Below, piece by piece: positions 12,877 to 64,000 of a stretch of DNA of 64,000 nucleotides (position 1 is its first letter; each line of letters begins with the position of its first letter). This stretch comes from Clavibacter michiganensis (GTDB lineage: Bacteria; Actinomycetota; Actinomycetes; Actinomycetales; Microbacteriaceae). The translations under genes were made by a program, and so were the position numbers. The stretch is taken from the NCBI GenBank assembly GCA_002150995.1, contig MDHJ01000001.1, positions 2,542,001 to 2,606,000 on the forward strand, written 5' to 3'. The notes under the pieces are model-generated. The model searched no databases and had not been told where the DNA came from. It saw only the letters and a list, made by a program, of their open reading frames with translations.

Positions 12877-13524
12877 CTACTTGTCGGAGTCGCCCGACTG
12901 GTCGCCGGTGGCGCCGTCGTCGGTGACGTCGACCTCGGCGTCGCCCTCGGCCACGACGTCCTCGTCGACCGCGTCGGTCGTGAGGTCGAGCTGGGGCACG
13001 GAGACCGCGAGCACGAGCGTCTCGGGGTCGGTGACCAGCGTGGCGCCGGCGGGGAGGTCGACCTGGCCGGCCGAGACCTGCGTGCCGTCCTCGAAGCCCT
13101 CGATGGAGACGACGAAGCTCTCCGGGATGTGCGTGGCCTCGACCTCGACGAGGATCGACGTGTTCTCGATCGTGTGGATCGTGCCGGGGTAGGACTCGCC
13201 CTCGACGTGGATCGGGACCTCGACCTCGACGCGCTCGCCCTGGCGGACGACGATGAGGTCGACGTGCTCGATGATCTGGCGGACGGGGTCCTTCTGGACG
13301 TCCTTCACCAGCGCGAGCTGCGGCTTGCCGGCGATGTCGAGCGTGATGATCTGGTTCGCCTTGCGGATGATGAGCATGAGCTCGTGGCCCGGCAGCGTGA
13401 CGTGCTGCGGGTCGGTGCCGTGGCCGTAGATGACCGCGGGGATCTTGCCGATCGCGCGGATCTTGCGGGCCGCGCCCTTGCCGAACTGCGTGCGCAGCTC
13501 CGCGGTGAGGTTGTTGTCAACCAT
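12877..13524 (-). CDS. rplY: 50S ribosomal protein L25/general stress protein Ctc
   Basis: A 215-residue L25/Ctc protein binding 5S rRNA. The N-terminal L25 domain has LTAELRTQFGKGAARKIRAIGKIPAVIYGHG; the C-terminal TL5-like domain has VEVEVPIHVEGE...SILVEVEATHIPESFVVSIEG. An acidic tail (DEDVVAEGDAEVDVTDDG) ends the protein. The frame is open 32 codons upstream, but ATG 13524 has TAGGAG at good spacing and matches the family start. Located upstream of pth on the same strand. Confidence 0.95.
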   Translation of the reverse strand: MVDNNLTAELRTQFGKGAARKIRAIGKIPAVIYGHGTDPQHVTLPGHELMLIIRKANQIITLDIAGKPQLALVKDVQKDPVRQIIEHVDLIVVRQGERVEVEVPIHVEGESYPGTIHTIENTSILVEVEATHIPESFVVSIEGFEDGTQVSAGQVDLPAGATLVTDPETLVLAVSVPQLDLTTDAVDEDVVAEGDAEVDVTDDGATGDQSGDSDK

Positions 13525-13693
13525 GGTGTCGCTCCTAGTGGAGCCCGTGAGGGCTCGCGTCGTGGTGTGTCGTCTGCTCGAACGCTTGCGCGTGAGGAAT
13601 GAGGTGCGAGCCCCGTCCACCGCGTCGATAACGGACCGCCGCCGCGCTCGCGCACGGCCCCTGCGATCCCTCGCCGAAGTTCAACCCCCGATG

Positions 13694-15633
13694 CTACCGG
13701 ACGGACGGGCCCCCGGTCGACGCGTCCGCGGCGGACCCCTCCTGCGCCGTCGGCCCCGCCGCCCCGGGAGCGGGCGGCGTCGACTGCCCGACGCGGAGGC
13801 GCAGGCCGTCGTGCACGCCGTCGACGACGTCCTCGAACGCGACCGGCGCGCCGAGCGTGGCCGAGACGTACACGCTCACCACGGTCGCCAGCGACAGGAA
13901 GGCGTCGTCGACGGTCACCCCGGCCGGGCGTCCCGTCCGGAGGGCGTCGGCGATGTCGTCGTACTGCCGGTAGTGGCCCTCGAGGTAGGTGTTGTCGAGC
14001 CGCGGGGACCGGGGCAGGTCCGCGTCGTGCAGCTCGAGCTCGGCGTCGTTCCGCACGTCCGCCTGGGCCGGCACCCCGGACTCGGGCGCCGCGTGGAAGT
14101 AGGTGAGCGAGCCCGCCTCGATGACCGCGGATCCGCGCGTCCCCTGCACCTGCACGCGCGTGTCGAGGCCCGGGTAGCCGGCCGTGCTCGCCTGGAGGGT
14201 CGCGAGCGCGCCCGAGGCGAAGCGGATCACGGCGACCGCGACGTCCTCCACCTCGATGCCCTCGTGGGCGAGCAGCGCCGTCTGCGCGTACACCTCGACC
14301 GGGCGGCCGAGGTAGGAGACGAGGAGGTCGAGCGTGTGCACGCCCTGGTTCATGAGGGCGCCGCCGCCGTCGAGGTCCCACGTGCCGCGCCAGTGCCCGG
14401 AGTCGTAGAAGCCCTGGCTGCGCCACCACGGCGCGCTGGCGACCGCGGAGGTGAGCCGGCCGAGCCGACCCGAGCGCACGGCACGGTCGACGACGACGCT
14501 CGAGGGATTGAAGCGGTGCTGGCTGATGACGGTCGAGAGGATCCCGCGTCCGGCGGCCGCGCGCGCGAGCTCCGCGATGCGGCGGCCGCGCGCCAGGTCG
14601 ACGTCGAGGGGCTTCTCGATGACGACGTGCAGGCCCGCGGCGAGCGCCTCCTCGGCGAGGCCGATGTGCAGGCCGCTCGGGGTGCAGATGACGACGAGCT
14701 CGGCGGCGTCCGCGCGGACGAGGTCGGCGAGCCGGGCGAAGACGCGGGGCGGTCGGCGCGCAGCTCGTCGACGACCACCTCCGCGAGCTCCTCCGCGGTG
14801 GTGGTGCTCGTGTCGACGAGGGCGGCGACGCGGAACCCGGGGTGCTCGGCGAGGACGCGCGCGTGGTGCGTGCCGATGACGCCGCAGCCGACGATCGCGA
14901 CCCGGATGGGCTGGTGGACCGCCGCGGCGGGCGCGCCCTCGTCGGACGGCTCGATCTCGGCGACGACCGCGGCGGCGCCCGACGGGTCCGGCAGCGCGTC
15001 GTCGGCGCGCGCGGCGCGGACGAGCGCCGGGACGTCCGCCTCGGGGACCGCCACGGCGGGCTCCGTCGGCGATGCCGGGGCGTCGTCGACGCGACCGGGC
15101 GACGCGGTCCGACCGCCGGGCAGGAGATCGCGGACCGCAGCGTCGGCGAGGGCCACGGGGTCGTCGGCGATGTCGAGCGTGACGCCGCGCTCGTCGTCGC
15201 CGAGCGGCTCCAGCGTGCGCAGCTGCGAGGCGAGGAGGCTGCCCGGCATGAAGTGGCCCTCCCGGTGCCCGAGGCGCTCGGCCAGGAGGTCGTGGTCTCC
15301 CGCGAGGTGCACGAAGGCGACGTCGGGGGCGGCGGCGCGGAGGATGTCGCGGTAGGAGCGCTTCAGGGCGCTGCAGGCCACGACCGGTCCGCCCTCGGGC
15401 CGGTCGGCGAGCACGCGCCCGATGTCCTCGAGCCAGGGACGCCGGTCGTCGTCGTCGAGCGCGTGGCCCTCGGCCATCTTCCGGCGGGCCGACTCGCTGT
15501 GGAGGACGTCTCCGTCGATGAAGGGGACGCCGGCGTCCTGGGCGAGGAGGTCGCCCACCGTCGACTTCCCGGATCCGGAGACCCCCATCACGATCACGGG
15601 CGGGAACGGGCGGACGGCGTCGATGCGGATCAC
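13694..15633 (-). pseudogene. Gluconokinase fused to Gfo/Idh/MocA-family oxidoreductase, frameshifted
   Basis: The first part is gluconokinase: P-loop GVSGSGKST (residues 17-25), FIDGDVLHSESARRKM, VVACSALKRSYRD and HFMPGSLLASQL. A linker of about 70 residues leads into a Rossmann fold (RVAIVGCGVIGTHHARVL) of the Gfo/Idh/MocA family, ending with the C-terminal domain GTWDLDGGGALMNQGVHTLDLL. The frame breaks at the G-run 14746-14749: one extra base there restores RVFARLADLVRADAAELVV and gives exactly 647 codons. I think it is one bifunctional protein of 646 residues with a sequence error. It is divergent from gnd, the next step of gluconate use. The start may be GTG 15633 or ATG 15690. Confidence 0.8.
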
Positions 15634-17245: not shown

Positions 17246-17278
17246 ACGCCCCGCCGCCCCTCATGGGCGGCGGGGCGT
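17246..17278 (+). terminator. Terminator hairpin after gnd
   Basis: ACGCCCCGCCGCCC (17246-17259), a five-base loop ctcat, and the exact complement GGGCGGCGGGGCGT (17265-17278). The perfect 14-bp stem starts 17 bases after the gnd stop; ctgtcac follows rather than a U-tract, as is common in actinobacteria. Confidence 0.85.
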
Positions 17279-17295
17279 CTGTCACACTGGGGCGG

Positions 17296-17669
17296 ATGGA
17301 CGACGACGAGCACCCCGAGCTCGCGGGCTACGAGCCGCACCGCCCCGGAGCCTGCGCAGCAAGCGCACGCTCCTCGTGATGCGGGTCGTCGTGGTGGTCG
17401 GGATCGTGAGCCTGCTGCTCCCCGGCGTCGTCACCATGGTGCGCGTCGGCGCGAACACGGCCGACATGGCGTGCGCCGACTTCGTGCGGTTCGAGCGCCC
17501 CGACTCCCCCTCCTACGAGGTGCGCTTCCAGCTCTTCGGCCCCGGCGTCGTGGGCTACGAGTGCTACACGCGGTACGCGTTCGGCGGCGACGAGCACATC
17601 GTCTCGCTGGGCCTCATCCCCTCGGGGCGCGTCGCGCGCGAGGTCGTCGAGCGGAACTCCCGGGACTGA
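17296..17669 (+). pseudogene. Small single-pass membrane protein, frameshifted
   Basis: An N-terminal frame from ATG 17296 (MDDDEHPELAGYEPHRP) and a second frame beginning near RSLRSKRTLLVMRVVVVV join if one C is added to the CCCC run around 17344-17347; the result is 125 codons. The product has a hydrophobic segment (RVVVVVGIVSLLLPGVV) and a short exported domain with two cysteines (DMACADFV, VGYECYTRYA). I do not recognise the family. It may equally be translated only from the GTG at 17376. It lies between the gnd terminator and convergent prs. Confidence 0.55.
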
Positions 17670-34517: not shown

Positions 34518-34949
34518 TCACCCGAGCGAGGCGACCCACTCGCTCGAGCCGTCGTCGAACGCCTGCTGCTTCCAGATGGGGACGCGCTGCTTGACCTCGT
34601 CGACGAGCACGCCGCAGGCGGCGAAGGCGTCGGCGCGGTGCGCGGAGGACACGGCGCAGGTGAGCGCGACGTCGCCGATGCCGAGCCGGCCGATCCGGTG
34701 CTCCACCGCGATGCGCACGTCCGGGTAGCGGGCGGAGACGTCGAGGGCGACCTGCCGGATCGCCTGGCGCGCGGCGGGATGCGCGGAGTAGTCGAGCCAG
34801 AGCACGCCCCGGCCGTCGTCGTGGTCGCGCACGACGCCCTCGAAGGTCACCACGGCGCCCGCGTCGTCGGCGCGCACGGCGTCGGCGCAGTCCTCGACGC
34901 GGATCGCCCCGCCGGCGATGCGCGCGAACAGCACCCGGTCGGCGGTCAC
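34518..34949 (-). CDS. moaE: Molybdopterin synthase catalytic subunit MoaE
   Basis: A 143-residue large subunit of molybdopterin synthase, which adds sulfur from MoaD thiocarboxylate to cyclic pyranopterin monophosphate. Seen: VVTFEGVVRDHDDGRGVLWLDYSAHP, VEHRIGRLGIGD and the C-terminal VPIWKQQAFDDGSSEWV. The usual catalytic Lys-Lys pair reads Lys-Gln (WKQQ), which occurs in some actinobacteria. It is last in the operon, overlapping mogA by 4 bases. No moaD or moaA lies in the window. Confidence 0.95.
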   Translation of the reverse strand: MTADRVLFARIAGGAIRVEDCADAVRADDAGAVVTFEGVVRDHDDGRGVLWLDYSAHPAARQAIRQVALDVSARYPDVRIAVEHRIGRLGIGDVALTCAVSSAHRADAFAACGVLVDEVKQRVPIWKQQAFDDGSSEWVASLG

Positions 34950-35473
34950 GCGCGCTCCTCCCGGTCGGCAGCCGGATCCGTCGCGGGGTGGACGGAGCCG
35001 CGGATCTGCTCGAGGACGTGGTCGAGGACGCCGTCGAGGACGGCCAGCCCGTCACGCACGCCGCCGGGCGAGCCCGGCAGGTTCATGACGAACGAGCCGC
35101 CGGCGACGCCCGCGTGCCCGCGCGTGAGCACGGCGGTGGGCGTGTGGGCCACGCCGACGCGGCGGACCTCCTCCACGATGCCCGGGATCTCGAGGTCCAG
35201 CAGCGGGGCGGTCGCCTCGGGCGTGCGGTCGGTGGGCGTGACGCCCGTGCCGCCCGTGGTGAGGACCACGCGCGCGCCCTCCGCGACGGCCTCGGCGAGC
35301 GCCGCGCCCACGCCGGGCCCGTCGGCGCGGACGAGCGGGCCGCCGACCGCGAAGCCGCGCTCGGCCAGCCACGCCGCGATGACGGGCCCCGTGCGGTCCT
35401 CGTACTCGCCCGCGGCGGCACGGGTGGAGGCGACGATGACGACGGCCCGGCCGCGCGGATCCGAGCCGCTCAT
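34946..35473 (-). CDS. Molybdopterin adenylyltransferase MogA/MoaB
   Basis: A 175-residue protein that adenylylates molybdopterin before metal insertion. The family nucleotide motif is VVLTTGGTGVTPTDRTPEAT; AVVIVASTRAAAGEYEDRTGP and GGSFVMNLPGSPGGVRDGL also match. It overlaps moaC upstream and moaE downstream by 4 bases each, showing tight translational coupling. MogA and MoaB cannot be separated by eye. Confidence 0.94.
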   Translation of the reverse strand: MSGSDPRGRAVVIVASTRAAAGEYEDRTGPVIAAWLAERGFAVGGPLVRADGPGVGAALAEAVAEGARVVLTTGGTGVTPTDRTPEATAPLLDLEIPGIVEEVRRVGVAHTPTAVLTRGHAGVAGGSFVMNLPGSPGGVRDGLAVLDGVLDHVLEQIRGSVHPATDPAADREERA

Positions 35474-35970
35474 GCGCGCACCCAGTCGCCGGACTTGCCG
35501 CCCTGCTTCTCGCGCACCAGGACCTCGGTGATCACGGCCCGGGCGTCGACGGCCTTCACCATGTCGTAGAGGGTGAGCGCGGCGACCGAGGCCGCGGTCA
35601 GGGCCTCCATCTCGACGCCCGTGACGCCCGTGGTGCTCACCGACGCGACGACCGTGAGCCGGTCGTCCGCACCCGCGATGTCGATCTCGATGCGCCCGAT
35701 CGGCAGCGGGTGGCAGAGCGGGATGAGGGACGAGGTCTGCTTCGCCGCCATGATCCCGGCGATGCGCGCCGTCCCGACGGCCTCGCCCTTGGGCAGGTCG
35801 CCGGAGATCACGGCCCGGACGACCTCGGGCCGCGTGACGAGCACCGCCTGCGCGACGGCGCGGCGCTTCGTGGTCGCCTTGCCGGTCACGTCGACCATGT
35901 GCGCGGATCCGTCCGGCCGCAGGTGGGTGAGGTCGGGCGCGACGTCCGCGCCGGCTCCGGGGTCAGTCAT
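35470..35970 (-). CDS. moaC: Cyclic pyranopterin monophosphate synthase MoaC
   Basis: A 166-residue enzyme completing cyclic pyranopterin monophosphate after the radical-SAM step of MoaA. Motifs: HMVDVTGKATTKRRAVA, AGIMAAKQTSSLIPLCHPL, and GVTGVEMEALTAASVAALTLYDMVKA with the active-site Glu and Asp/Lys. It overlaps the moeA stop by 8 bases and mogA by 4. Confidence 0.96.
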   Translation of the reverse strand: MTDPGAGADVAPDLTHLRPDGSAHMVDVTGKATTKRRAVAQAVLVTRPEVVRAVISGDLPKGEAVGTARIAGIMAAKQTSSLIPLCHPLPIGRIEIDIAGADDRLTVVASVSTTGVTGVEMEALTAASVAALTLYDMVKAVDARAVITEVLVREKQGGKSGDWVRA

Positions 35971-37257
35971 CGATGCTCCAGACGGTCACGGCGTCGCCGG
36001 CCTCGAGCCGGTCGAGACCTGCGGGGATGTGGACGAGGTAGGTGGCGGTCGCGTACGCGTGCAGGAGATGGGATCCGGGGCCGCCGACCGGGACCACCCG
36101 GCCGTCGGCGTCGATCCGGCCGCGCCGCACCTGGTGCTTGCCGGCGGGCGAGTCGAGGGCCTCGGCGAGCGGCAGCTCCTGCGCCGCGCGGTCGGGGCGC
36201 GGGTGCCCAGCGAGGGCGCGCAGCACGGGGCGGAGGAAGAGCTCGAAGGAGACGAGCGCGCTCACGGGGTTGCCGGGGAAGGCCACCACCGGGACGCGGG
36301 CGCCGCCGAGGTCCGCCGTCCCGAGGCCCTGCGGCCCGCCCGGCTGCACGGCGACGGATCGGAACTCCACGCCGCCGCCCTCGAGGACGTCGCGCACCAC
36401 CTCGTAGGCGCCCGCGCTCACGCCGCCTGTGGTGACGAGCAGGTCGACGCCGTCGGCGGCCGCGCGGAGCGCGTCGCGCACGCGGTCGGGCTCGTCGGAC
36501 GCGACCCGCAGCGCGCGGACCTCCGCGCCGGCGGCGTGCAGCGCCGCCGCCAGCGCGACGGAGTTGGCGTCGTGCACCTGGCCGGGCGCGAGCTCCTCGC
36601 CGGGGCCGCGCAGCTCGAGGCCGGTGGAGAGGAGGAGGACGACGGGTCGGCGGCGGACCACGACGCGGGCGACGCCCGCCGATGCGAGGACGCCCAGTGC
36701 GCGGGGAGGAGGCGCGTCCCCCGGGCGACCAGCGGGCGGCCCGCGGCGAGGTCGCTGCCGCGCTCGCGGACGTACGCGCCCGCGTCGACGGGAGCGGTGA
36801 AGGAGACCGTCGCGTCGACCGCGGCCTCGTCGACGAAGCGGTCCGGCGTCGCGGCCTCGACGGGCACGACCGCGTCGGCGCCGGGCGGCACGGGGGCGCC
36901 CGTCATGCAGGGCGCGGCCGTGCCGGGGGCGAGCGGCGGGGCGGCGCGGCCGGCGGGGATCCGCGCGGCGATGCGGAGGGCGACCGGCCGCGCGGGCGAA
37001 GCGGCCCGGATGTCCGCCACGCGCACGGCGTAGCCGTCCATCTGGGAGTTCCGGAACGGCGGGAGGTCGAGGGGGTTGGTGACGTCGTGGGCGAGCACGC
37101 GGTCGGCGTAGCGGTGCGGATCGGCCGTGAGCGCGCCCGCGTCGACGGGCAGCTCCTCGCCGGGCAGGTCCGCGAGCGGGGCGAGGAGGGCGCGCACGGC
37201 CGCGCGGTGCTCCTCCACGCGACGTCGCGCGGGGCCGGCGGGGCGGTCGGTGCTCAT
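35963..37257 (-). pseudogene. moeA: Molybdopterin molybdotransferase MoeA, frameshifted
   Basis: MoeA inserts molybdate into adenylylated molybdopterin. The N-terminal frame from ATG 37257 has RNSQMDGYAVRVADIR, CMTGAPVPPGADAVVPVE and GSDLAAGRPLVARGTRLLP, then degenerates. The C-terminal frame has VVLLLSTGLELRGPGEEL, VTTGGVSAGAYEVVRDVL and VVAFPGNPVSALVSFE. Adding one base to the GGGG run 36703-36706 (CCCC on the coding strand) reads LLPRALGVLASAGVARVVV and gives 432 codons. The operon's first gene is thus probably intact in the organism. Confidence 0.9.
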
Positions 37258-38205: not shown

Positions 38206-39150
38206 GTGACCGACACCCCCGCCCCGGCACCCGCCGACGCGTCCACCACCCGTCCCCGCGCCGAGATCGGCGTCATCGGCGGATCCGGCCTGTACGCCCT
38301 GCTCGACCCCGCCACCAGCGCATCGCACCGCGTCGCGACGCCGTTCGGACCGACGTCCAGCGAGGTGACCGTCGGCGAGCTCGCCGGCCGCCGGGTGGCG
38401 TTCCTCACGCGGCACGGCGCCGACCACTCGGTCGCGCCGCACCTCATCGACTACCGGGCGAACGTCTGGGCGCTGGCGTCGCTCGGCGTGACGGCCATCG
38501 TCTCGTCGTCCGCCGTGGGCGGCGTCTCGCCGGACTACCCGCCGGGATCGCTCGTGCTCACCGACCAGCTCCTGGACCGCACCTGGGGCCGCCCGGACAC
38601 CTTCTTCGACGCCGGCGTCGTGCAGCACCTGTCCGCCGCCGACCCGTTCGACCCGGCCCTGCACGGCCCCGCGGCCGCGGCGCTGGTCGAGCTCGAGGGC
38701 GGCGACCGCGCCGATCCCGCGGGGCCGCTGCGCACCTCGGGCACCGTCGTCGTCATCCAGGGGCCGCGGTTCTCCACGCGCGCCGAGTCGCTGTGGTTCC
38801 GCCAGGCGGGTGCCCACATCGTGAACATGACGCAGTACCCGGAGGTCGTCCTGGCCTCCGAGCTCAACGTCGGCACCGTCAACCTGTCGTTCGTCACCGA
38901 CGCCGACGCGGGCCTCGCGCCGCTGCCCGGTGAGCAGGGCGACGCGGTCACCGCCGAGCTGGTGTTCGCGCGCCTCCGGGAGGCGCAGCCGCGCATCGTG
39001 CGGGCGATCGAGGCGGTCGTCCGCGCGATCCCGGCCGGCTACCGCGGCCGCCCCCTCATCGACGCGGACGCGGTCGCCTCGGTGCTCGCGCGTCCCGTCA
39101 CGGGCGCGACGGGCGACGCGGCGGCGCCGGCGACGGAGGCGCGCTCGTGA
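38206..39150 (+). CDS. S-methyl-5'-thioadenosine phosphorylase family protein
   Basis: A 314-residue trimeric-type purine nucleoside/MTA phosphorylase, splitting methylthioadenosine with phosphate in methionine salvage. Motifs: EIGVIGGSGLYALL, VAFLTRHGADHSVAPHLIDYRANVWAL, SSAVGGVSPDYPPG, VVIQGPRFSTRAESLWFRQ and VNMTQYPEVVLASELNV. GTG 38206 has AAGGAG a few bases upstream. Its stop overlaps the epimerase start by GTGA. The C-terminal extension of 35 residues is variable. It could also act on inosine or adenosine. Confidence 0.93.
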   Translation: MTDTPAPAPADASTTRPRAEIGVIGGSGLYALLDPATSASHRVATPFGPTSSEVTVGELAGRRVAFLTRHGADHSVAPHLIDYRANVWALASLGVTAIVSSSAVGGVSPDYPPGSLVLTDQLLDRTWGRPDTFFDAGVVQHLSAADPFDPALHGPAAAALVELEGGDRADPAGPLRTSGTVVVIQGPRFSTRAESLWFRQAGAHIVNMTQYPEVVLASELNVGTVNLSFVTDADAGLAPLPGEQGDAVTAELVFARLREAQPRIVRAIEAVVRAIPAGYRGRPLIDADAVASVLARPVTGATGDAAAPATEARS

Positions 39151-40211
39151 GCGACGGGATCCTCCTCGTCACGGGCGGCGCGGGCTTCATCGGCGGCACG
39201 ATCGTCACCGCGGCCCTCGAGGAGGGTCGCCGGGTGCGCGTCCTCGACTCGCTCCGCGCCGACGTGCACGGCGGCGAGCCGGAGACGGATCCGCGCGTCG
39301 AGCTGTTGCGCGGCGACGTCACCGACCCGGACGCGGTCGCGCGCGCCCTCGACGGCGTCGACGTCGTGTGCCACCAGGCCGCCAAGGTCGGGCTCGGCGT
39401 CGACTTCCTCGACGCGCCCGACTACGTGTCCACCAACGACGGCGGCACCGCCGTGCTCCTGGCCGCGATGACCCGCGCGGGCATCGACCGGCTCGTGCTC
39501 GCGAGCTCGATGGTCGTCTACGGCGAGGGCGCCTACGCGGGCGCCGACGGACCGGTCCGCCCGCCCGCGCGCCGCGTCGCCGACCTCGACGCCGGCATGT
39601 TCGACCCCCTCGATCCCGCGACGGGCGAGCCGCTCGTCCCGCAGCTCATCGGCGAGGACGTGCCGCTCGACCCGCGGAACGTCTACGCCACCACGAAGCT
39701 CGCGCAGGAGAACCTCGCGAGCTCGTGGACGCGCGCCACGGGCGGCCGGGCCGCCGCGCTCCGCTACCACAACGTCTACGGGCCGGGCATGCCGCAGAAC
39801 ACGCCCTACGCGGGCGTCGCCTCCCTGTTCCGCTCGGCCCTCGCCCGCGGCGAGGCGCCGCGCGTCTTCGAGGACGGCCGTCAGCGTCGCGACTTCGTGC
39901 ACGTCCGCGACGTCGCCGGCGCGAACCTCGCGGCGCTCGCCTGGACCGGGGATCGCGAGGCCGGCTCCTTCCGCGCCTTCAACGTCGGCAGCGGCACGGT
40001 GCACACCATCGGCGAGATGGCCGAGGCGCTCGCGCGCGAGGCCGGCGGATCGGCGCCCGTCACCACGGGCGAGTACCGGCTCGGCGACGTGCGGCACATC
40101 ACGGCGTCGTCGGAGCGGCTGCGCACGGAGCTCGGCTGGGAGCCCCGGATGACGTTCGAGGAGGGCATGCGCGAGTTCGCCACGGCGCCGCTCCGCAGCG
40201 CGGTGGTCTGA
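39147..40211 (+). CDS. NAD-dependent sugar epimerase/dehydratase (extended SDR)
   Basis: A 354-residue extended short-chain dehydrogenase like UDP-glucose 4-epimerase. Seen: nucleotide motif LLVTGGAGFIGGTIV, VCHQAAKVGLGVD, catalytic SSMVVYGEGAY and YATTK (Tyr-x3-Lys), HNVYGPGMPQNTPYAGV and RDFVHVRDVAGANL. The sugar nucleotide is unknown. GTG 39147 overlaps the MTA phosphorylase stop by four bases, so the two are coupled. Confidence 0.93.
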   Translation: MSDGILLVTGGAGFIGGTIVTAALEEGRRVRVLDSLRADVHGGEPETDPRVELLRGDVTDPDAVARALDGVDVVCHQAAKVGLGVDFLDAPDYVSTNDGGTAVLLAAMTRAGIDRLVLASSMVVYGEGAYAGADGPVRPPARRVADLDAGMFDPLDPATGEPLVPQLIGEDVPLDPRNVYATTKLAQENLASSWTRATGGRAAALRYHNVYGPGMPQNTPYAGVASLFRSALARGEAPRVFEDGRQRRDFVHVRDVAGANLAALAWTGDREAGSFRAFNVGSGTVHTIGEMAEALAREAGGSAPVTTGEYRLGDVRHITASSERLRTELGWEPRMTFEEGMREFATAPLRSAVV

Positions 40212-56656: not shown

Positions 56657-57355
56657 CTACTTGGTGTTGACGGTGATCTTCGCGATGCCGACGACGAGCT
56701 CGTCGGTGACGGCGTCGGTGCCGAAGGTGCTGTTCAGCAGGGCGGCGGCGTCGGGGCTGACCTTGACGGTGGTGCCCTCGAGGACGGCGTTGTCGCCCTC
56801 CATCTGGAGCGGGTTCAGGGTCGTGCCGTCGAGGTTGAAGATGTAGACGTCGTTCATGACCTCGCCGTCGCCGACCTGGACCGAGCCGGTGAGGCGGCTG
56901 GTGCCGGGGTCGATGACGAAGTCGGTGAGCTTCACGACGGTGTCGCCGGCGGTGAGGCTGATGCCGGAGCCGTCGTGGTCGATCTCGCCCTGGACGTAGG
57001 GGCGGTAGTCCATCTCGGGGTCGTAGTAGTCCACGTTGCCGCCGGTGATGGGGAACGCGAGGACGCCGGTGGCGCCGTCGAGGGTGGCGGTGCCGATGAC
57101 GCCGGGGGTCAGGCCCAGGGTCGTGAGGGCGCCGGTGAAGCCGGAGTCGAGGGTGACCTGGGTGTCGACGCCGGTCAGGGTCGGGATCGACGCGAGCGGC
57201 GTGGGGTCGGCCTCGGTCGTCGCGGACGCGGACGCGGACGGCGCGGCGGAGCTGGAGGACGAGGGGGTCTCGGCGGGGGTCGAGCAGGCCGCGAGGCCGA
57301 CGACGAGGAAGCCCGCGGTGGCGAGGCCGAAGACCGACTTGGTGAGGTTGCGCAT
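56657..57355 (-). CDS. Exported lipoprotein, unknown function
   Basis: A 232-residue precursor. After MRNLTKSVFGLATAGFLVV comes lipobox GLAAC (Cys24), a Ser/Ala/Thr linker and a mature domain rich in strands: GVIGTATLDGATGVLAFPITGG, VDYYDPEMDYRPYVQGEIDHDGSG, LTDFVIDPGTSRLTG and NDVYIFNLDGTTLNPL. I do not recognise the family. AAGGA precedes ATG 57355; upstream codons in frame look non-coding. It is divergent from a PadR regulator, so it may be the regulated target. Confidence 0.82.
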   Translation of the reverse strand: MRNLTKSVFGLATAGFLVVGLAACSTPAETPSSSSSAAPSASASATTEADPTPLASIPTLTGVDTQVTLDSGFTGALTTLGLTPGVIGTATLDGATGVLAFPITGGNVDYYDPEMDYRPYVQGEIDHDGSGISLTAGDTVVKLTDFVIDPGTSRLTGSVQVGDGEVMNDVYIFNLDGTTLNPLQMEGDNAVLEGTTVKVSPDAAALLNSTFGTDAVTDELVVGIAKITVNTK

Positions 57356-57618: not shown

Positions 57619-58313
57619 ATGCGCACCCACGACCACGATCACGACCACCTGCCGTCCCGCACCCGGGACGGCGTCCCCGCCGACCGCCACGAGCCCCGCC
57701 TGCAGCACCACCGCGGCGGACGCCCGCGCATCATGCCCGGGCGCCCGCTCGCCCGCGGCTTCCAGCCCGGCGAGGGCGGCGGCTTCCCGGGCTTCCCCGG
57801 GTTCCCCGGCTTCCCCGGCATGGGCGGCTTCGGCGGCCCCGGCTTCGGCCCGGGCCGCGGACGCGGCGGACGGGCCGCGCCCGCCGCGGCGACGTCCGCC
57901 TCGCGATCCTCTCCCTGCTCGCCGAGGCGCCGTCCAACGGCTACGGGCTCATCACCGGCATCGCCGCGAAGAGCGAGGGCGCCTGGCGCCCGAGCCCCGG
58001 CTCCGTGTACCCGACGCTCCAGCAGCTCGTCGACGAGGACCTCATCGTCGCCGACGAGTCCGGCGCCAAGAGCGTCTACTCCCTCACCGACGCGGGCCGC
58101 GCCCACGTCGAGGAGAACCGCGCGTCGATCGACGCCGCCTGGGCCGCCACCACCGACCGGTCCGAGGGCGAGGACGCGTTCCAGACGAGCCTCATGAAGC
58201 TCATGGGCGTCGTGAAGCCCCTCATGCACGACGCGACCGACGCCCAGCGCCAGGCCGCGGCGGCGAAGCTCGACGAGACGCGGCGCGCGCTGTACGCGAT
58301 CCTCGCCGACTGA
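57619..58313 (+). pseudogene. PadR family transcriptional regulator, frameshifted
   Basis: AAGGAG precedes ATG 57619. The N-terminal frame holds a histidine-rich start (THDHDHDHLPSR) and a Gly-Pro-Phe repeat (GFPGFPGFPGFPGMGGFGG). The PadR domain continues in another frame: RGDVRLAILSLLAEAPSNGYGLITGI, WRPSPGSVYPTLQQLVDEDLIVADESGAKSVYSLTDAGRAHVEE. Adding one C to the CCC run 57880-57882 joins them (RAAPRRGDVRL) and gives 232 codons. A terminator follows. PadR proteins repress membrane or stress genes; the divergent lipoprotein is the obvious candidate. Confidence 0.88.
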
Positions 58314-58447: not shown

Positions 58448-58717
58448 TCAGCGGATCGCGGCGCCCGTGTCCAGGTCGTCGCCGGCCTCGAGGTCGGGGC
58501 CGTCCGACTGCGTGATGTCGATGCCCAGCCCGCCGTCCTCGGCGTCGTCGTCGGCGTCGTCGGCGGCCGCGTCGTCGTCGTCGAGCGGCACGACGCGCTC
58601 CGCGTCGACGGCCTCCTCGGCATCGCGGTCGTCGGTGCCGACGAGCTCCTCCACGTCGACGCCGGTGTCGTCCAGGTCGCGGTCGGCGGGGTCGCGCGGG
58701 TTCTCGATGTCGCTCAC
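58448..58717 (-). CDS. Small highly acidic protein
   Basis: 89 residues, over a third Asp/Glu (PLDDDDAAADDADDDAEDGG), with no hydrophobic segment. The start GTG 58717 has GAGGAGAG upstream, and the N terminus (SDIENPRDPADRDLDDTGVDVEELVGTDDRD) looks like other small actinobacterial proteins of unknown function. It probably is disordered. Its real coding status is supported mainly by the ribosome site and composition. Confidence 0.65.
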   Translation of the reverse strand: MSDIENPRDPADRDLDDTGVDVEELVGTDDRDAEEAVDAERVVPLDDDDAAADDADDDAEDGGLGIDITQSDGPDLEAGDDLDTGAAIR

Positions 58718-58814: not shown

Positions 58815-60427
58815 TCAGGCGACGGTGACGGAGATGCCGTGCCAGCCGGTCGCGCCGTCGGGCGCGGGCGGCGCCTCGTCCGAGGTCTGGGTCGCGCCCG
58901 TGGTGTCGGTCGCGCGCACCTCGAGCCGGTGGGATCCGCTCGTCGCGTCCCACGCGTACGACCACTGCCGCCAGGTGTCGGTGCCGACGCCGTCGCCCAG
59001 GGCCGCCTCGGCCCAGTCGCCCTCGTCGACGCGCACCTCGACGCGCGCGATGCCGGTGTGCTGCGCCCACGCCATCCCGGCGACGGCGACCCGGCCCGCG
59101 TCGACGCGGACGCCCGCGCGCGGGGTGTCGATGCGCGAGCCGGTCTTGATCGGGCCGCGCTCGGTCCAGCCGCGGGTGGACCAGTACGCGACGTCCTCGG
59201 CGAAAGTGGTCACCTTGAGCTCGGTGACCCACTTCGTGGCGGACACGTAGCCGTAGAGCCCGGGCACCACCATCCGCACGGGGAAGCCGTGCTGCTGCGG
59301 CAGCGGCTCGCCGTTCATGCCCACCGCGAGGATCGACGCCCGGTCGGGGTCGGTGAGCGCCTCCAGCGGCGTGCTCGCCGTCCAGCCGTCCTGGCTGGTG
59401 GACAGCACCATGTCGGCGCCGGCACGGGGCCGGGCGCGCTCGAGCAGCAGCCGGATGGGGTAGCCGAGCCACAGGGCGTTGCCGATCAGGTCGCCGCCGA
59501 CCTCGTTGGACACGCACGTGAGCGTCGTCACGTGCTCCTCGAGGGGCAGCGCCAGGAGCTCGGCGAAGGTGATCTCCACCTCCTCCTCGACCATGCCGGT
59601 GATGCGGAGGCGCCACGACGCCGCGTCGACGGACGGCACCTGCAGGGCCGTGTCGATGCGGTAGAAGTCCGAGGCGGGGGTGACGAACGGCGCGAGGCCG
59701 TCGATCCCGAGCTCGGCGGAGGCGGGGATCGCGGCGGCGGGCGTCGCCGCGCGCGGGAGCACGAGGGTGCGGCGGAAGTCGTCCACGCGCGCGGCCGCGG
59801 CGTTGAGGCCGCGGGCGACGGATCCGGCGACGACGGAGGCGACGCCCGCCACCACGGTCATCACGAGGAACGTGCGGCGCTCGACGCGCGCGCCGCCGGT
59901 GAGGGGGCGCGGGCGGCCGGGCGGGCGATCGCGCGCACGGGCTCCGCCGCCTGCACGGCCACGGACGTGGAGCGGTCGGCGGCGTCGCGCCAGTCGCGGA
60001 GCCGGTCCGCGCCGCGGTGCAGGATGAAGACGCCCGCGAGCATGCCGAGGACGGTGGGGATCGCCGCGGCGCCCGTGGCACCGGCGCGCGAGGTGGCCGC
60101 CAGCACCGCGACGCCGGCGAAGAGCGCCAGCACGACGATGCCGAGGGGTGGACGGCGCACCTGCAGGATCCCGGCGAGCGCGGCCGCGGCGAGCACCACG
60201 ACGCCGAGCACGACGATGAGCGCGACCTTGTCGCCCGTGCCGAACAGCGCGATGACGGCGTCCTTGACGCCCGCGGGCACCAGGTCGATGACGAGCGCGC
60301 CGACCGCCAGCACCGGGCTCGCCGCGGGCGCGACGAACGCCGCCGCGATCTCCGCGACGGCGAGGACGGACAGCGCCGCGACGACCCCCAGGAACGCCGA
60401 CCAGGCGGCCAGGGCCGCACGGGTCAC
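58815..60427 (-). pseudogene. Membrane-anchored molybdopterin-dependent oxidoreductase (sulfite oxidase fold), frameshifted
   Basis: From GTG 60427 (overlapping the kinase stop as GTGA) the first frame encodes about four helices (LAAWSAFLGVVAALSVLAVAEIAAAFVAP, VALIVVLGVVVLAAAALAGIL, LGIVVLALFAGVAVLAAT). The second frame holds the molybdopterin domain: VEEEVEITFAELLALPLEEHVTTLTCVSNEVGGDLIGNALW (Cys likely the Mo ligand), GWTASTPLEAL, GLYGYVSATKWVTELKV and a C-terminal dimerisation domain. One extra base in the GGGGG run 59903-59907 or the neighbouring run restores LTGGARVERRTFLVM and 538 codons. Substrate unknown. Confidence 0.88.
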
Positions 60428-61686
60428 GCCGGGACCGGCTTGCTGTACGGGAGGATCACGTCGAAGCGGCAGCCGCCGTCGACGTTCTGCACGGTCACGT
60501 CGCCGTCGTGCGCGCGCACGATGCCTCGGACGATGGCGAGGCCGAGGCCTGCGCCGCCACCGCCCGACGCGTAGCCGCCGTCGTGGGTGGACTCGGCCTG
60601 CGCGGCGGGATCGGGCTCCGGGGTCTCGGCGGCGGGCGCCGGGAAGTCGGGCCCGAGGGCCGCCCTCTGCGCGGCGCTGCCGGCATACGCGCGGGGAGTG
60701 CGGGATCCGGTGGAGCGCCAGCCCGCGTCGAACACGCGCGGCAGGTCGGCCTCGGGGATGCCGCCCGCGGTGTCCTCGACCGACAGGACCGCGAGGTTGC
60801 CGGAGTCGCGGTGCGCCGAGATGACGATGCGGCCGCCGGGGAGCGACTGCTGGATGGCGTTCATCACGAGGTTGCCGACGACGCGCGAGAGCTCCCGCGG
60901 GTCGCCCTGCACCACGAGGTCGTCGTGCGCGGTGACGCCGCGGAGGTCGACCTGGCGCGCCTGCGCGACCGGTCCGAGCTCGGCGACCGTGTCGCTCACG
61001 ACGTCGTAGAGGGAGACGCGCTCGACGGCGAGGTCGAGGCTGCCCGAGTTGATGCGGGACAGCTCGAAGAGGTCGTCGACCATGCCGTTGAGGCGGTTCG
61101 CCTGCACGCGGATCTGCCGGAAGTAGCGGTGCTCGTCGTCGACCATGCCGTCCTCCAGGGACTCGGCCATGGCGCGGATGCCGGCGAGCGGCGTGCGGAG
61201 GTCGTGCGACATCCAGGCGATGAGCTCGCGGCGGCTGCGCTCCTGGGCCTCCATCCGGTCGCGGGCGTCCGCGAGGCGGCGGTTCGCGGCGCTGAGCTCG
61301 CGGGCGAGCTGCGCGAACTCCGTGCTGGTGGGGCGGTTCGGCTCGACGGCGGCCTCCTCGCCCATGGACGCGGCGTAGCGGCCGAGCTCCCGGCTGCCGC
61401 GCACGAGGGTCATGCCGAGCATGGCGGCCATGACCAGCGAGACGAGCGCGGAGACGGCGGCGACGGAGAGGAACGCGGCGAGGCCGGCGTCGTCCACGAG
61501 CATGCCCGCGGTGACGGCGACCATGCCGCCCACGACCGAGAGCACGGCGGCGAGCGCGACGACGCAGATCTGCAGCACGAGCGAACGGCGGCGGAGGAGC
61601 CGCAGGAGGACGCTCGCGCCGAGGCCGACGACGGCGGCGCAGACGAGCGCCGTCAGCACGACGATGAGGAAGGAGTCCGCGTTCAC
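60424..61686 (-). CDS. Sensor histidine kinase
   Basis: A 420-residue two-helix kinase. Helix 1 (SFLIVVLTALVCAAVVGLGASVLLRLL) and helices at about 35-75 enclose a very short external loop, so it probably senses within or near the membrane. Then HAMP-like linker, H-box RRELIAWMSHDLRTPLAGIRAM, N-box RVVGNLVMNAIQQSL, G1 VEDTAGGIPEADL and G2 GAGLGLAIVRGIVRAHDG. Between G1/F and G2 is an extra segment of about 45 residues (TGSRTPRAYAGSAAQRAALG...) in the ATP lid. GTG 61686 overlaps the regulator stop. Confidence 0.93.
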   Translation of the reverse strand: MNADSFLIVVLTALVCAAVVGLGASVLLRLLRRRSLVLQICVVALAAVLSVVGGMVAVTAGMLVDDAGLAAFLSVAAVSALVSLVMAAMLGMTLVRGSRELGRYAASMGEEAAVEPNRPTSTEFAQLARELSAANRRLADARDRMEAQERSRRELIAWMSHDLRTPLAGIRAMAESLEDGMVDDEHRYFRQIRVQANRLNGMVDDLFELSRINSGSLDLAVERVSLYDVVSDTVAELGPVAQARQVDLRGVTAHDDLVVQGDPRELSRVVGNLVMNAIQQSLPGGRIVISAHRDSGNLAVLSVEDTAGGIPEADLPRVFDAGWRSTGSRTPRAYAGSAAQRAALGPDFPAPAAETPEPDPAAQAESTHDGGYASGGGGAGLGLAIVRGIVRAHDGDVTVQNVDGGCRFDVILPYSKPVPA

Positions 61687-62528
61687 GCGTCGCCCCCGGC
61701 GGGATCGGCGACGGGCGCGGCAGGCGCAGCCGCGGCAGGCGCGGCGGGCGTCGCGGCGTCGGGGTCGAAGCGGTAGCCCACGCCCCACACGGTGCCGAGG
61801 AGGACGGGATGGGCGGGATCCGCCTCGATCTTCTCCCGCAGCCGCCGCACGTGCACGGTGACGGTGCTGAGGTCGCCGATCTCCCAGCCCCACACCTGGC
61901 GGAGCAGGTCGTCGCGACCGAACACGCGCCGCGGGTTCCGCAGGAGGAAGGCGAGCAGGTCGAACTCGCGCGAGGTGAGCGAGAGCATGGCACCGGCCTG
62001 GTGGATCTCCCGCGCACCGAGGTCGAGCACGAACGGGCCGGCGACGAACGCGGGCTCCGGGACGTCCTCTAGGACGGTGCGGCGGAGGACGGCGCGCACG
62101 CGGAGCACCAGCTCGCGCGGGGAGAAGGGCTTCGCCAGGTAGTCGTCGGCTCCGGCGTCGAGGCCGTTGACGCGGTCCTCGCCCTGGCCGAGCGCGGTGA
62201 GCATCACGACGGGGACGGGCGACTCGGGGTGCTCCGCGCGGATCCGACGGCACACCTCGAGCCCGTCGAGGCCCGGGAGCATGCGGTCGAGCACGACGAG
62301 GTCGGGCATCCGCTCGGTGGCGACGCGCACGGCCTCGAGCCCGTCGGCGACCGTCTCCACGTGGAAGCCGGAGGCCTTGAGGTAGCGGCACACCACCTCG
62401 TTGACGGTGGGGTCGTCCTCGACGACGAGGATGCGGCGGCCGCGCAGGGGGTCCGGCCGCGACGGATCGGGCCGAGAGGGGTCGGGGCGGCCGCCATCGG
62501 CGCGCGCGGTATCGGATGCGGGGCTCAC
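61683..62528 (-). CDS. OmpR-family response regulator
   Basis: 281 residues. Receiver: ILVVEDDPTVNEVVCRYL, phospho-acceptor in PDLVVLDRMLPGLDGLEV, and LAKPFSPRELVLRV. Winged helix: LSLTSREFDLLAFLLRNPRRVFGRDDLLRQVWGW...VTVHVRRLREKIE...VWGVGYRF. The first 27 residues (RPDPSRPDPSRPDP) and last 25 (ATPAAPAAAAPAAP) are low complexity. The gene leads the operon regulator-kinase-molybdopterin oxidoreductase, suggesting it controls the enzyme. Confidence 0.95.
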   Translation of the reverse strand: MSPASDTARADGGRPDPSRPDPSRPDPLRGRRILVVEDDPTVNEVVCRYLKASGFHVETVADGLEAVRVATERMPDLVVLDRMLPGLDGLEVCRRIRAEHPESPVPVVMLTALGQGEDRVNGLDAGADDYLAKPFSPRELVLRVRAVLRRTVLEDVPEPAFVAGPFVLDLGAREIHQAGAMLSLTSREFDLLAFLLRNPRRVFGRDDLLRQVWGWEIGDLSTVTVHVRRLREKIEADPAHPVLLGTVWGVGYRFDPDAATPAAPAAAAPAAPVADPAGGDA

Positions 62529-62600
62529 CCGGCCAGACTATGCGCCGGTCCCTGGGCGCAGCCGGGCCGTGTCCGGCTTGCGAGCGAGCCGTCACCCCTC

Positions 62601-62700
62601 GCGGCGGTGCCGCCTCACGGCCGACGGCGCCCTCCCCCAGCCGCGGACTCGCTCCGGTGCCGCCTCACGGCCGACGGCGCCCTCCCCCAGCCGGGGACTC
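62601..62700. repeat. Two tandem 50-bp repeats between divergent genes
   Basis: 62601-62650 and 62651-62700 are near-identical: 39 bases (62605-62643 and 62655-62693) match exactly, then one mismatch and ggactc again. They lie between the response regulator and the glycosyltransferase. The second copy ends at the glycosyltransferase -10 TAGGCT (62702-62707), so the pair may be regulatory or a slippage duplication. Confidence 0.85.
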
Positions 62701-62713
62701 CTAGGCTCACGGC

Positions 62714-63421
62714 ATGACGCAAGCGCTCGTGGACGTGGTCCTCCCCTGCCTGGACGAGGAGGAGGCCCTGCCCTGGGTGCTGTCGCGCCTGCCGGAGGGG
62801 TACCGCGCCATCGTCGTCGACAACGGCTCGACCGACCGCTCCGCCGAGGTCGCGCGGGAGCACGGCGCGCTCGTGGTGGCCGAGTCCCGCCGCGGGTTCG
62901 GCGCCGCCGCGCATGCGGGCCTCGAGGCGGCGACCGCTCCGCTCGTCGCGTTCTGCGACGCCGACGCGTCGATGGACCCGGCCCTCCTCCCCCGCGTCGT
63001 CGATCCCGTGCGACACGGCGAGCGCGACCTCGTGCTCGGTCGCCGCGTGCCCTCGGCGCGCGGCGCGTGGCCGCTGCACGCGCGCATCGCGAACCTGGAG
63101 CTGGCGCGCCGGCTCCGACGGATCACGGGGGTCCCGCTCCACGACCTCGGCCCGATGCGCTGCGGCCGGCGCACCGAGCTGCTCGGCCTCGGCATCCTCG
63201 ACCGGCGCAGCGGCTATCCGCTGGAGATGCTCCTGCGGGCGTCCGCCGCCGGGTGGAGCATCCTGGAGGTGGACATGCCGTACGCACCGCGCGTGGGGCG
63301 GTCCAAGGTCACCGGCACCGTGCGCGGGACCGTCACGGCCGTCCGCGACATGTCGCGCGTGCTGGCCGAGGCGCGCGCCGCGGCCGCGGGAGCAGGCCGC
63401 GCACCGGGAGGATCCGCATGA
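62714..63421 (+). CDS. Glycosyltransferase family 2 protein
   Basis: 235 residues. GT-A fold: VDVVLPCLDEEEALPWVLSRLP, AIVVDNGSTDRSAEVARE, and the DxD-like CDADASMDP, then LGRRVPSARGAWPLHARIAN and YPLEMLLRASAAGWSILEVDMPY. No membrane helices, so it is cytosolic or peripheral; polyprenyl-phosphate or sugar acceptors are both possible. TAGGCT (62702-62707) lies six bases before the ATG, so the message may be leaderless. Its stop overlaps the next ATG as ATGA. Confidence 0.92.
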   Translation: MTQALVDVVLPCLDEEEALPWVLSRLPEGYRAIVVDNGSTDRSAEVAREHGALVVAESRRGFGAAAHAGLEAATAPLVAFCDADASMDPALLPRVVDPVRHGERDLVLGRRVPSARGAWPLHARIANLELARRLRRITGVPLHDLGPMRCGRRTELLGLGILDRRSGYPLEMLLRASAAGWSILEVDMPYAPRVGRSKVTGTVRGTVTAVRDMSRVLAEARAAAAGAGRAPGGSA

Positions 63422-64000
63422 CCGCCGTCGTCGTCATCGCCAAGGAGTGCATCCCGGGCCGCGTGAAGACGCGCCTGCACCCGCCGTTCACGCTCGAGGA
63501 GGCGGCCGAGCTCGCCTCCTCGGCCCTCGCCGACACGCTCGCCGCCGTGGACGACGCCGCCCCCGCGCGGCGCGTGCTCCTCTTCGACGGCAGGACGCCG
63601 CCCGAGGAGGCGGCCGGCTACGACGTGATCCCGCAGGTCGCGGGCGACCTCGACGAGCGCCTCGCCGCCATGTTCGACGTGCTCGACGGCCCGGTCCTCC
63701 TCGTCGGGATGGACACGCCCCAGCTGACCGCGGCGCTGCTGCGCCCCGTGCTCGACTCCTGGGCCGACGGCGCGCAGGGCCCCGACGCGTGGTTCGGCCC
63801 GGCGAACGACGGCGGCTTCTGGGCGCTCGGGCTCCGGGACCCGGACGGCGCGCTGGTGCGCGGCGTCCCCATGTCCCGCGACGACACCGGCGCCGTGCAG
63901 CTGTCGCGCCTGATCGACGCCGGGCTCGACGTCGCGATGCTCCCCGAGCTCACGGACGTGGACACGGTCGACGACGCGCGGGAGGCCGCCGCGGCCGCGC
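63418..64000 (+). CDS. DUF2064 (TIGR04282-type) glycosyltransferase-like protein, partial
   Basis: The frame leaves the right edge after 194 residues. It has TAVVVIAKECIPGRVKTRLHPPFTLEEAAELA, VLLVGMDTPQLTAALL and WFGPANDGGFWALGLRDP, a nucleotidyl/glycosyltransferase-like fold. Members sit next to GT2 enzymes in arsenosugar and other glycolipid loci. ATG 63418 overlaps the GT2 stop by four bases, so the two are coupled. C terminus and further operon members are outside the window. Confidence 0.9.
   Translation, partial: MTAVVVIAKECIPGRVKTRLHPPFTLEEAAELASSALADTLAAVDDAAPARRVLLFDGRTPPEEAAGYDVIPQVAGDLDERLAAMFDVLDGPVLLVGMDTPQLTAALLRPVLDSWADGAQGPDAWFGPANDGGFWALGLRDPDGALVRGVPMSRDDTGAVQLSRLIDAGLDVAMLPELTDVDTVDDAREAAAAA

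Follow-up and report, generated by a model that had tools for sequence, protein, structure and literature searches.

A response regulator-kinase pair beside a membrane molybdoenzyme of Clavibacter michiganensis and its candidate family in the Actinomycetes

We analyzed a 64,000-nucleotide stretch of the Clavibacter michiganensis contig MDHJ01000001.1 (assembly GCA_002150995.1, positions 2,542,001 to 2,606,000), here called the window, in a host genome that consists of a single contig of 3.27 Mb. Toward its end, a response regulator (RR), a sensor histidine kinase (HK), and a membrane-bound molybdenum oxidoreductase that we call MoA follow one another on the reverse strand, with GTGA overlaps at both junctions (61683 to 61686 between RR and kinase and 60424 to 60427 between kinase and enzyme). 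A first-pass annotation made from the sequence had proposed this two-component system (TCS) and both overlaps, and the coordinates and Pfam matches agree with it, as they do with the molybdenum cofactor (Moco) operon that it placed 23 kb away in the window. This operon consists of moaE (34518 to 34949), a mogA-like MoCF_biosynth gene (34946 to 35473), moaC (35470 to 35970), and moeA (35963 to 37218), the last of which is split over two frames in this assembly. The kinase indeed has almost no external loop, with about 8 residues. The enzyme, on the other hand, had been read as one open reading frame from 60427 to 58815 and is found in two frames in this assembly; the mechanically called frame for its second part spans 58815 to 59864. 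The features of the locus are listed in Table 1.

Table 1. Features of the Clavibacter locus and related genes in the window
Feature	Coordinates	Strand	Basis or remark
OmpR/PhoB-type RR	61683..62528	-	Pfam; in one clade with the 36 regulators of the family
Sensor HK (HisKA, HATPase_c), about 3 hydrophobic segments, outer loop of about 8 residues	60424..61686	-	Pfam
Codon of kinase Met62 (outer-loop Met, 77/78 aligned sensors)	61501..61503	-	
Membrane part of MoA, modeled sulfite oxidase-fold enzyme (transmembrane segments 1 to 4, no conserved heme His)	59861..60427	-	No Pfam match
Second part of MoA (Tat motif ERRTFL, fifth transmembrane segment, Oxidored_molyb, Ig-like C-terminal domain)	58815..59894	-	
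Interval of the MoA frame break in this assembly	59894..59936	-	
30-base conserved block upstream of RR, with one TGACG half-site	62569..62598	-	Candidate regulator-binding site
GT2 glycosyltransferase, divergent partner of RR in many genomes	62714..63421	+	Pfam on the G006 ortholog
DUF2064/TIGR04282-type gene, next in the GT2-DUF2064-methyltransferase-MoB island; runs past the window end	63418..64000	+	G006 ortholog
Moco operon (moaE, mogA-like, moaC, moeA)	34518..37218	-	
PNP_UDP_1 phosphorylase (MTAP-like) and NAD-dependent epimerase	38206..40211	+	Relatives directly flank the kinase in several genomes

The short kinase loop lies between the second and third of about three hydrophobic segments and faces outward when the protein is oriented by the positive-inside rule. 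Within it, Met62 is the only practically invariant column among the first 120 sensor positions, being present in 77 of 78 aligned sensors; the exception (L273) is a miscalled gene that we retained in the count, and the count is slightly biased because the search profiles themselves contained this Met. The next most conserved positions (n = 78) are Asp68 and Val71 (69 each), Leu90 (67), Ser65 (65), Val75 (61), and His67 (60).

A profile of the sensor part detected the kinase in 36 of 297 genomes of the order, and a broader sensor profile detected it in 169 of 394 genomes of the class (Actinomycetes). For neighborhood comparisons, the order set comprised 37 loci (39 kinase places, minus 2 near contig ends) and the class set 39 loci (40 places from the 169 class genomes, chosen by hand to cover families, minus L260, which had no kinase gene). 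The regulators beside the 36 kinases form one clade with support of 100/96, apart from the paralogs of 7 genomes, and the Clavibacter pair shares both hallmarks of the family, a sensor with the outer-loop Met62 and an RR within this clade. A membrane molybdoenzyme is encoded within about 8 genes of the pair at 21 of the 37 order loci and 20 of the 39 class loci, i.e., at 41 of 76 loci in a tally by hidden Markov models, versus none of 17 loci around paralogous regulators taken as controls (P = 1.6 × 10−5, with kinship ignored). Neighbors are undercounted at L251, L254, L264, L266, and L280 because contig ends truncate these class loci. The association extends to co-occurrence, as MoA (E values up to 1e-60) is found in 35 of the 36 genomes of the order that have the kinase versus 130 of the 261 that do not.

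The gene order itself recurs beyond this genome. Among named loci (the best 80 of 412), the RR-HK pair adjoins MoA in 17: 4 from Clavibacter (the relatives bearing this name are 89 to 91% identical at the protein level), 1 from a Lacisediminihabitans metagenome-assembled genome (L073), and 12 from Arthrobacter/Paenarthrobacter. The 4-base overlap of HK and MoA is kept at all 16 other Clavibacter loci, and L073 and the nine Arthrobacter/Paenarthrobacter loci examined for this feature likewise have an enzyme start codon with a 4-base overlap onto the kinase stop. In three genomes (G121, G219, and G243), RR-HK-MoA runs directly into MoeA-MoaC-MogA-MoaE with MoaA divergent (Pfam names from representatives of G121 and G219), and G265 carries modA/modB upstream and, beyond an opposite-strand MTAP gene, MoeA-MoaC-MogA-MoaE downstream. 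Since the distant Clavibacter Moco operon adjoins MTAP-like and epimerase genes whose relatives flank the kinase elsewhere, it looks like a displaced part of one such neighborhood. The gene orders of these four genomes, together with a second molybdoenzyme (MoB, described below) and modABC-like genes near the Clavibacter pair, bear out the first-pass annotation in coupling the TCS to a membrane molybdoenzyme and to molybdenum genes. Its expectation that the three genes stay together in relatives survives in part: MoA occurs in 165 of the 297 genomes of the order and the kinase in 36, and the kinase is directly followed by MoA at only 6 of 37 kinase loci, but a promoter box suggests a link that outlasts adjacency. 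As to the statement that no described system with this exact order was known, we found no paper describing the order or the system in the open-license PMC literature; other genomes share the order. The commonest arrangement places the pair divergent from GT2-DUF2064-methyltransferase-MoB, with or without an epimerase gene.

The promoter box emerged from an expectation-maximization search of 61 regions upstream of RR, which yielded cCTTACGaAcCgCgGACG, two direct-repeat half-sites 11 bases apart with the consensus TTACG-N6-KGACG, often about 50 to 60 bases before the RR start. The log-likelihood was 338 versus 65.5 to 77.1 in six shuffles, the latter run with fewer restarts. We evaluated other promoters in a cross-trained test, with matrices taken from the other genome set, RR promoters masked, and sites of at least 14 bits counted; genes without a 40-base upstream gap and genes overlapping a masked RR promoter were left out. 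The box preceded 15 of 34 molybdoenzyme genes versus 15 of 629 unlabeled genes (kinship ignored), and it was also found before 4 of 6 thioredoxin lipoprotein, 6 of 15 MTAP, and 6 of 19 epimerase genes. Across the named genomes, sites of at least 12 bits occurred at 15 of 75 MoA promoters versus 36 of 1,029 control upstream regions, and at 14.5 bits, the proportions were 8 of 75 and 26 of 1,029 (kinship ignored in both comparisons); RR promoters and further true targets are among the controls, and some of the 75 MoA genes are operonic. Boxes are also present at MoA promoters in genomes whose MoA gene lies apart from the pair, and because of these sites, we suggest that the link between RR and MoA can outlast adjacency. 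The same box occurs at several promoters of a recurring GT2-DUF2064-methyltransferase-MoB cluster, often extended by epimerase, MTAP-like, and GT87 genes (e.g., L241, L246, L248, L267, and L144 to L149). A strict-pattern search of G121 gave 2 matches versus 8 in the control, which says little because the RR site of G121 itself does not fit that pattern.

In Clavibacter, the DNA-recognition segment of the RR (STVTVHVRRLREK) is unchanged, and it is nearly unchanged across the family. The 30-base block upstream of RR differs at 0 to 3 positions among 11 Clavibacter. Next to it, between RR and GT2, a 50-base unit is repeated 2.1 times (62598 to 62700), an arrangement absent from ten other aligned Clavibacter loci.

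The catalytic part of MoA carries an unambiguous Oxidored_molyb domain (PF00174; E = 2.6e-44; 151 bits versus the Pfam cutoff of 24). A twin arginine (R186-R187) directly before the fifth transmembrane (TM) segment is invariant in 101 of 101 aligned full-length MoA proteins, and in the MoA of L115, it is followed by a hydrophobic segment at 187 to 210. No His is conserved in the TM part among the 101 full-length proteins, so the ligands expected for two b hemes are lacking. A full-length model built from 62 sequences for a Clavibacter relative (L034; pLDDT, 89) matched chicken sulfite oxidase best (Z = 29.1) and also SorA (Z = 28.8 over 298 residues at 2.6 Å), with lower scores (Z = 17.5 to 17.6) for 1xdq and 1xdy, which we take to be YedY/MsrP, a smaller oxidoreductase. 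An earlier candidate, a model of the catalytic part only from 14 sequences, was discarded (pLDDT, 57). MoA keeps the Cys ligand and an Arg aligned with SorA R55 and has a Trp at the position of SorA Y236 in the printed alignment, read by eye. Overall, MoA is a Sec/Tat-type polytopic protein with a predicted sulfite oxidase fold and without a conserved heme His. It passes none of the equivalog models (SorA, 115 of the required 600 bits; SoxC, 107 of 420; SorT, 88 of 570) and also stays below the MsrP model (59 bits versus a cutoff of 207).

MoB, a heme-type membrane molybdoenzyme, is encoded about 5 kb away, just outside the window. It has histidines in its TM part (positions 44, 70, 142, 156, and 167 in L115), a Tat motif, and a C-V-E-G-W motif that resembles C-V-E-A-W of Escherichia coli MsrP. 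MoB of G006 fails the MsrP model (30 bits; cutoff, 207), the common C-V-E-[GA]-W motif nonetheless being shared. The genes between and beyond include GT2-DUF2064-methyltransferase, GT87, modABC-like genes, and a regulator whose matches are of the Mop and excisionase types, all scanned on G006 orthologs. A third, small Oxidored_molyb protein (218-amino-acid frame) is encoded elsewhere in the host genome (1485407 to 1485844; L002).

Redox-related genes accompany some members of the family. At six order loci (L146, L148, L150, L155, L171, and L178), the neighborhood holds a thioredoxin-like lipoprotein and a DsbD/CcdA-like protein, with MoA additionally present at L155, L171, and L178; the DsbD/CcdA-like name is tentative because none of the proteins of L146, L148, and L155 reaches the Pfam cutoff. 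Met-rich lipoproteins make up 4 of 148 genes within two genes of the TCS versus 0 of 496 genes farther away, and they could possibly act as oxidant sinks or copper binders. A Met-rich peptide of Azospira reportedly offers a comparison. Very Met-rich lipoproteins divergent from RR are encoded at L154 (8165 to 8467; 13% Met), L175 (10482 to 11030), and L160 (10639 to 11178). Those of L175 and L160 have DM13 domains, and the L160 gene is directly followed by one for a DoxX/MauE-like membrane protein (11196 to 11654), whose DoxX and MauE matches both fall below the Pfam cutoff. At L147, the kinase has an MsrA gene (PMSR; E = 2e-53; 13185 to 13730) three genes away. Judged by eye, the lipoprotein encoded near the Clavibacter pair is not rich in Met. 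Downstream of MoA in the window are genes for a lipoprotein-like protein (56657 to 57355) and a very acidic small protein (58448 to 58717), both also present in G006, and a shortened PadR-like gene (58005 to 58313).

We estimate a probability of about 0.5 that the Clavibacter pair is a member of an uncharacterized actinobacterial TCS family that controls extracytoplasmic molybdenum oxidoreductases. The data suggest that the family is widespread and switches on such enzymes, probably in response to oxidative damage. The best-supported picture is that of an envelope redox-response system that would work like HprSR-MsrPQ of E. coli without belonging to it. Oxidants would oxidize the single conserved Met in the tiny outer loop of the kinase, which may then phosphorylate the regulator; the regulator would bind the direct repeat TTACG-N6-KGACG (11-base period) and switch on the membrane molybdoenzymes, namely, MoA with its predicted sulfite oxidase fold and the heme-type MoB with its MsrP motif. 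Further targets could be the thioredoxin lipoprotein and the DsbD/CcdA-like protein in some lineages, as well as part of the linked sugar/methyl gene cluster. Drawing electrons from the membrane, the enzymes would then repair or detoxify oxidized sulfur outside the cell, provided that their reactions run in this direction. A broader version is tentative, and we rate it well below even odds: a class-wide system of the Actinomycetes, in which a single extracytoplasmic Met is the redox switch of a kinase with next to no outer domain, TTACG-N6-KGACG governs two membrane molybdoenzyme families plus a sugar/methyl pathway, and the whole is an independently built Gram-positive counterpart of HprSR-MsrPQ.

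Several observations weigh against redox control of molybdoenzymes by the pair. No molybdoenzyme is found nearby at 35 of the 76 loci, some of which are cut by contig ends. By sequence and predicted fold, MoA resembles sulfite dehydrogenases more than MsrP, and its reading frame is interrupted here, as it is in G016; in this assembly, the membrane and Tat/catalytic parts lie in different frames. In the cross-trained test, the box was more frequent before GT2 (8 of 11) and GT87 (8 of 12) than before molybdoenzymes, so the main theme may be something other than redox, and it was found before 0 of 5 methyltransferase, 0 of 4 MoeA, and 0 of 2 modA genes; with the matrix from all regions, MoeA and modA each have one upstream site in L156. 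The canonical box is absent in Clavibacter at RR, MoA, and MoB, the best score upstream of RR being 3.6 bits with no site of at least 9 bits, and the genome-wide search of Clavibacter gave only 2 pattern matches, equal to the control. The box is thus common in the family and not universal, and because it is missing here, regulation of the Clavibacter enzyme would rest on the overlapping operon. Finally, the Clavibacter outer loop keeps the Met and has lost the S-x-H-D signature seen in other members.

The strongest rival to a redox-responsive molybdoenzyme regulator is that the pair primarily regulates the sugar/methyl cluster (GT2-DUF2064-methyltransferase, epimerase, MTAP-like, and GT87 genes), with the molybdoenzymes there being biosynthetic rather than devoted to repair. 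GT2, DUF2064, and methyltransferase genes are neighbors at 38, 35, and 32 of the 76 loci, respectively, nearly the frequency of the molybdoenzymes, and the box precedes GT2, GT87, MTAP, and epimerase genes at the rates given above. We nevertheless regard this explanation as rather unlikely: the six loci with thioredoxin/CcdA-like genes and/or MoA have no sugar genes within 7 genes of the kinase, the box is found at MoA promoters even when MoA lies apart from the pair, and a divergent MoB often shares the boxes of GT87 and MTAP. A different signal would make the kinase a sensor of copper or another metal, with the Met and His of the loop motif M-F-L-S-x-H-D as ligands, the Met-rich lipoproteins binding copper, and the molybdoenzymes repairing copper-oxidized proteins. 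Met and His bind copper, most members have both residues in the loop (His in 60 of 78), and DM13 lipoproteins rich in Met occur in the family. According to excerpts of PMC9302797, copper, acting through CusSR, is another inducer of E. coli msrPQ; together with these ligands, this makes a copper sensor a rival. It is improbable in our view, since the His is absent in Clavibacter and in other members while the Met stays, and no copper pump was seen among the labeled neighbors, although copper genes were not searched for and unlabeled neighbors are unannotated. Slightly less probable still is that the near-loopless kinase senses the quinone pool, the membrane state, or the flow of electrons through the enzyme, which would then report to its kinase; this last idea had been put forward in the first-pass annotation and gained no support here. 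Closely spaced TM segments with almost no outer domain would fit such a sensor, as would the overlap of kinase and membrane enzyme genes in Clavibacter, L073, and Arthrobacter-type loci. Against it, conservation in the sensor is highest at the outer-loop Met, and the loci lacking a nearby molybdoenzyme have none to report. The nearly invariant Met lends weight to the redox half of the first-pass proposal that the kinase senses membrane or redox state.

The frame breaks raise the further explanation, which we also consider improbable, that the module is decaying in this genome and that the pair may have no functional molybdenum target here. MoA and moeA are broken, and just beyond the window, modA is split over two frames and modC is shortened, with the N-terminal 85 residues missing from the match. 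In a rough hand tally with hand-counted classes, 4 of 12 molybdenum-related genes were broken versus 3 of 45 other genes (P = 0.03), which weakly suggests that molybdenum genes are preferentially affected. Other genes of the module are each in one frame (MoB, modB, moaC, mogA-like, moaE, RR, and HK), and MoA is in one frame at 15 of 16 other Clavibacter loci, the exception being G016. The window matches 42 genes of G006, of which 34 are intact here, 4 frame-broken, and 4 neither. The breaks relative to G006 fall at 13697 to 15633, 17263 to 17666, 35963 to 37218, and 58815 to 60427 of the window and at 17024 to 17694 of L114, moeA and modA being among them. Because genome completeness is low (92.3 here versus 99 to 100 in 17 other genomes of the genus) and unrelated genes are also broken, we think that an assembly error is the likeliest reason for the break in MoA and that real decay is possible.

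To our knowledge, the sensing and repair of oxidation outside the membrane are less well described in Gram-positive bacteria than in E. coli. A kinase family with a single conserved outer-loop Met, together with its DNA box and a handful of candidate targets, makes these processes testable in ordinary laboratory actinomycetes. The proposed control of molybdoenzymes, if true, would provide a first function for a widespread regulator pair without a name (probably SCO3740/41 in Streptomyces) and for molybdoenzymes known so far as export models, the context in which excerpts of PMC5449189 present them.

The closest known parallel is the E. coli system, in which hprSR is divergent from hiuH-msrP-msrQ, a gene order that we inspected directly. 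Excerpts of PMC10151825 report that two Met residues in the periplasmic loop of HprS sense HOCl and that the system drives msrPQ. Both systems combine an OmpR-type RR and a kinase with an adjoining Oxidored_molyb-type enzyme and a membrane partner. In contrast to HprS, the loop of the kinase described here has only about 8 residues and one conserved Met, and in contrast to MsrPQ, MoA has a fused membrane part without a conserved heme His. The family box, a direct repeat, also differs from the E. coli box CATTACAAAATTGTAATG, for which the excerpts of PMC9302797 give an inverted repeat. The regulator (P0004) fails the HprR cutoff (137 bits versus 353), and HprR falls outside the RR clade in the tree, on a long branch whose placement is unsure. 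From the sulfite dehydrogenases SorA, SoxC, and SorT, with which it shares the predicted catalytic fold, the Cys ligand, and the Arg, MoA differs in the Trp, the fused membrane part, and its scores below the cutoffs.

In domain plan, the nearest relative is Sco3746 of Streptomyces, described in the excerpts of PMC5449189 as a Sec/Tat dual-targeted polytopic MoCo protein. MoA shares its five TM segments, the twin arginine before the fifth of these, and the C-terminal MoCo domain, and MoB shares the plan with histidines in the TM part; as far as those excerpts describe Sco3746, MoA differs in lacking a conserved TM His, in its predicted catalytic fold, which is like that of SorA, and in its extra Ig-like domain. 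SCO3740/SCO3741 of S. coelicolor appear as an OmpR-class RR-HK pair without a name in the portion of the TCS list of PMC9739842 that covers them. The regulator tag is five from Sco3746, which equals the spacing of RR-GT2-DUF2064-methyltransferase-small gene-MoB in L241, L242, and L268, and because this distance fits, the pair is probably a member of the actinobacterial family, going by tag numbering alone. A looser parallel is Brucella bcrXQP, in which, according to excerpts of PMC10151825, a Met-rich peptide accompanies an MsrPQ homolog under a sigma/anti-sigma pair. A Met-rich extracytoplasmic protein beside a molybdoenzyme module is likewise seen at L154, and as far as the Brucella excerpts go, the difference lies in control, by a TCS in the actinobacterial family instead of a sigma/anti-sigma pair.

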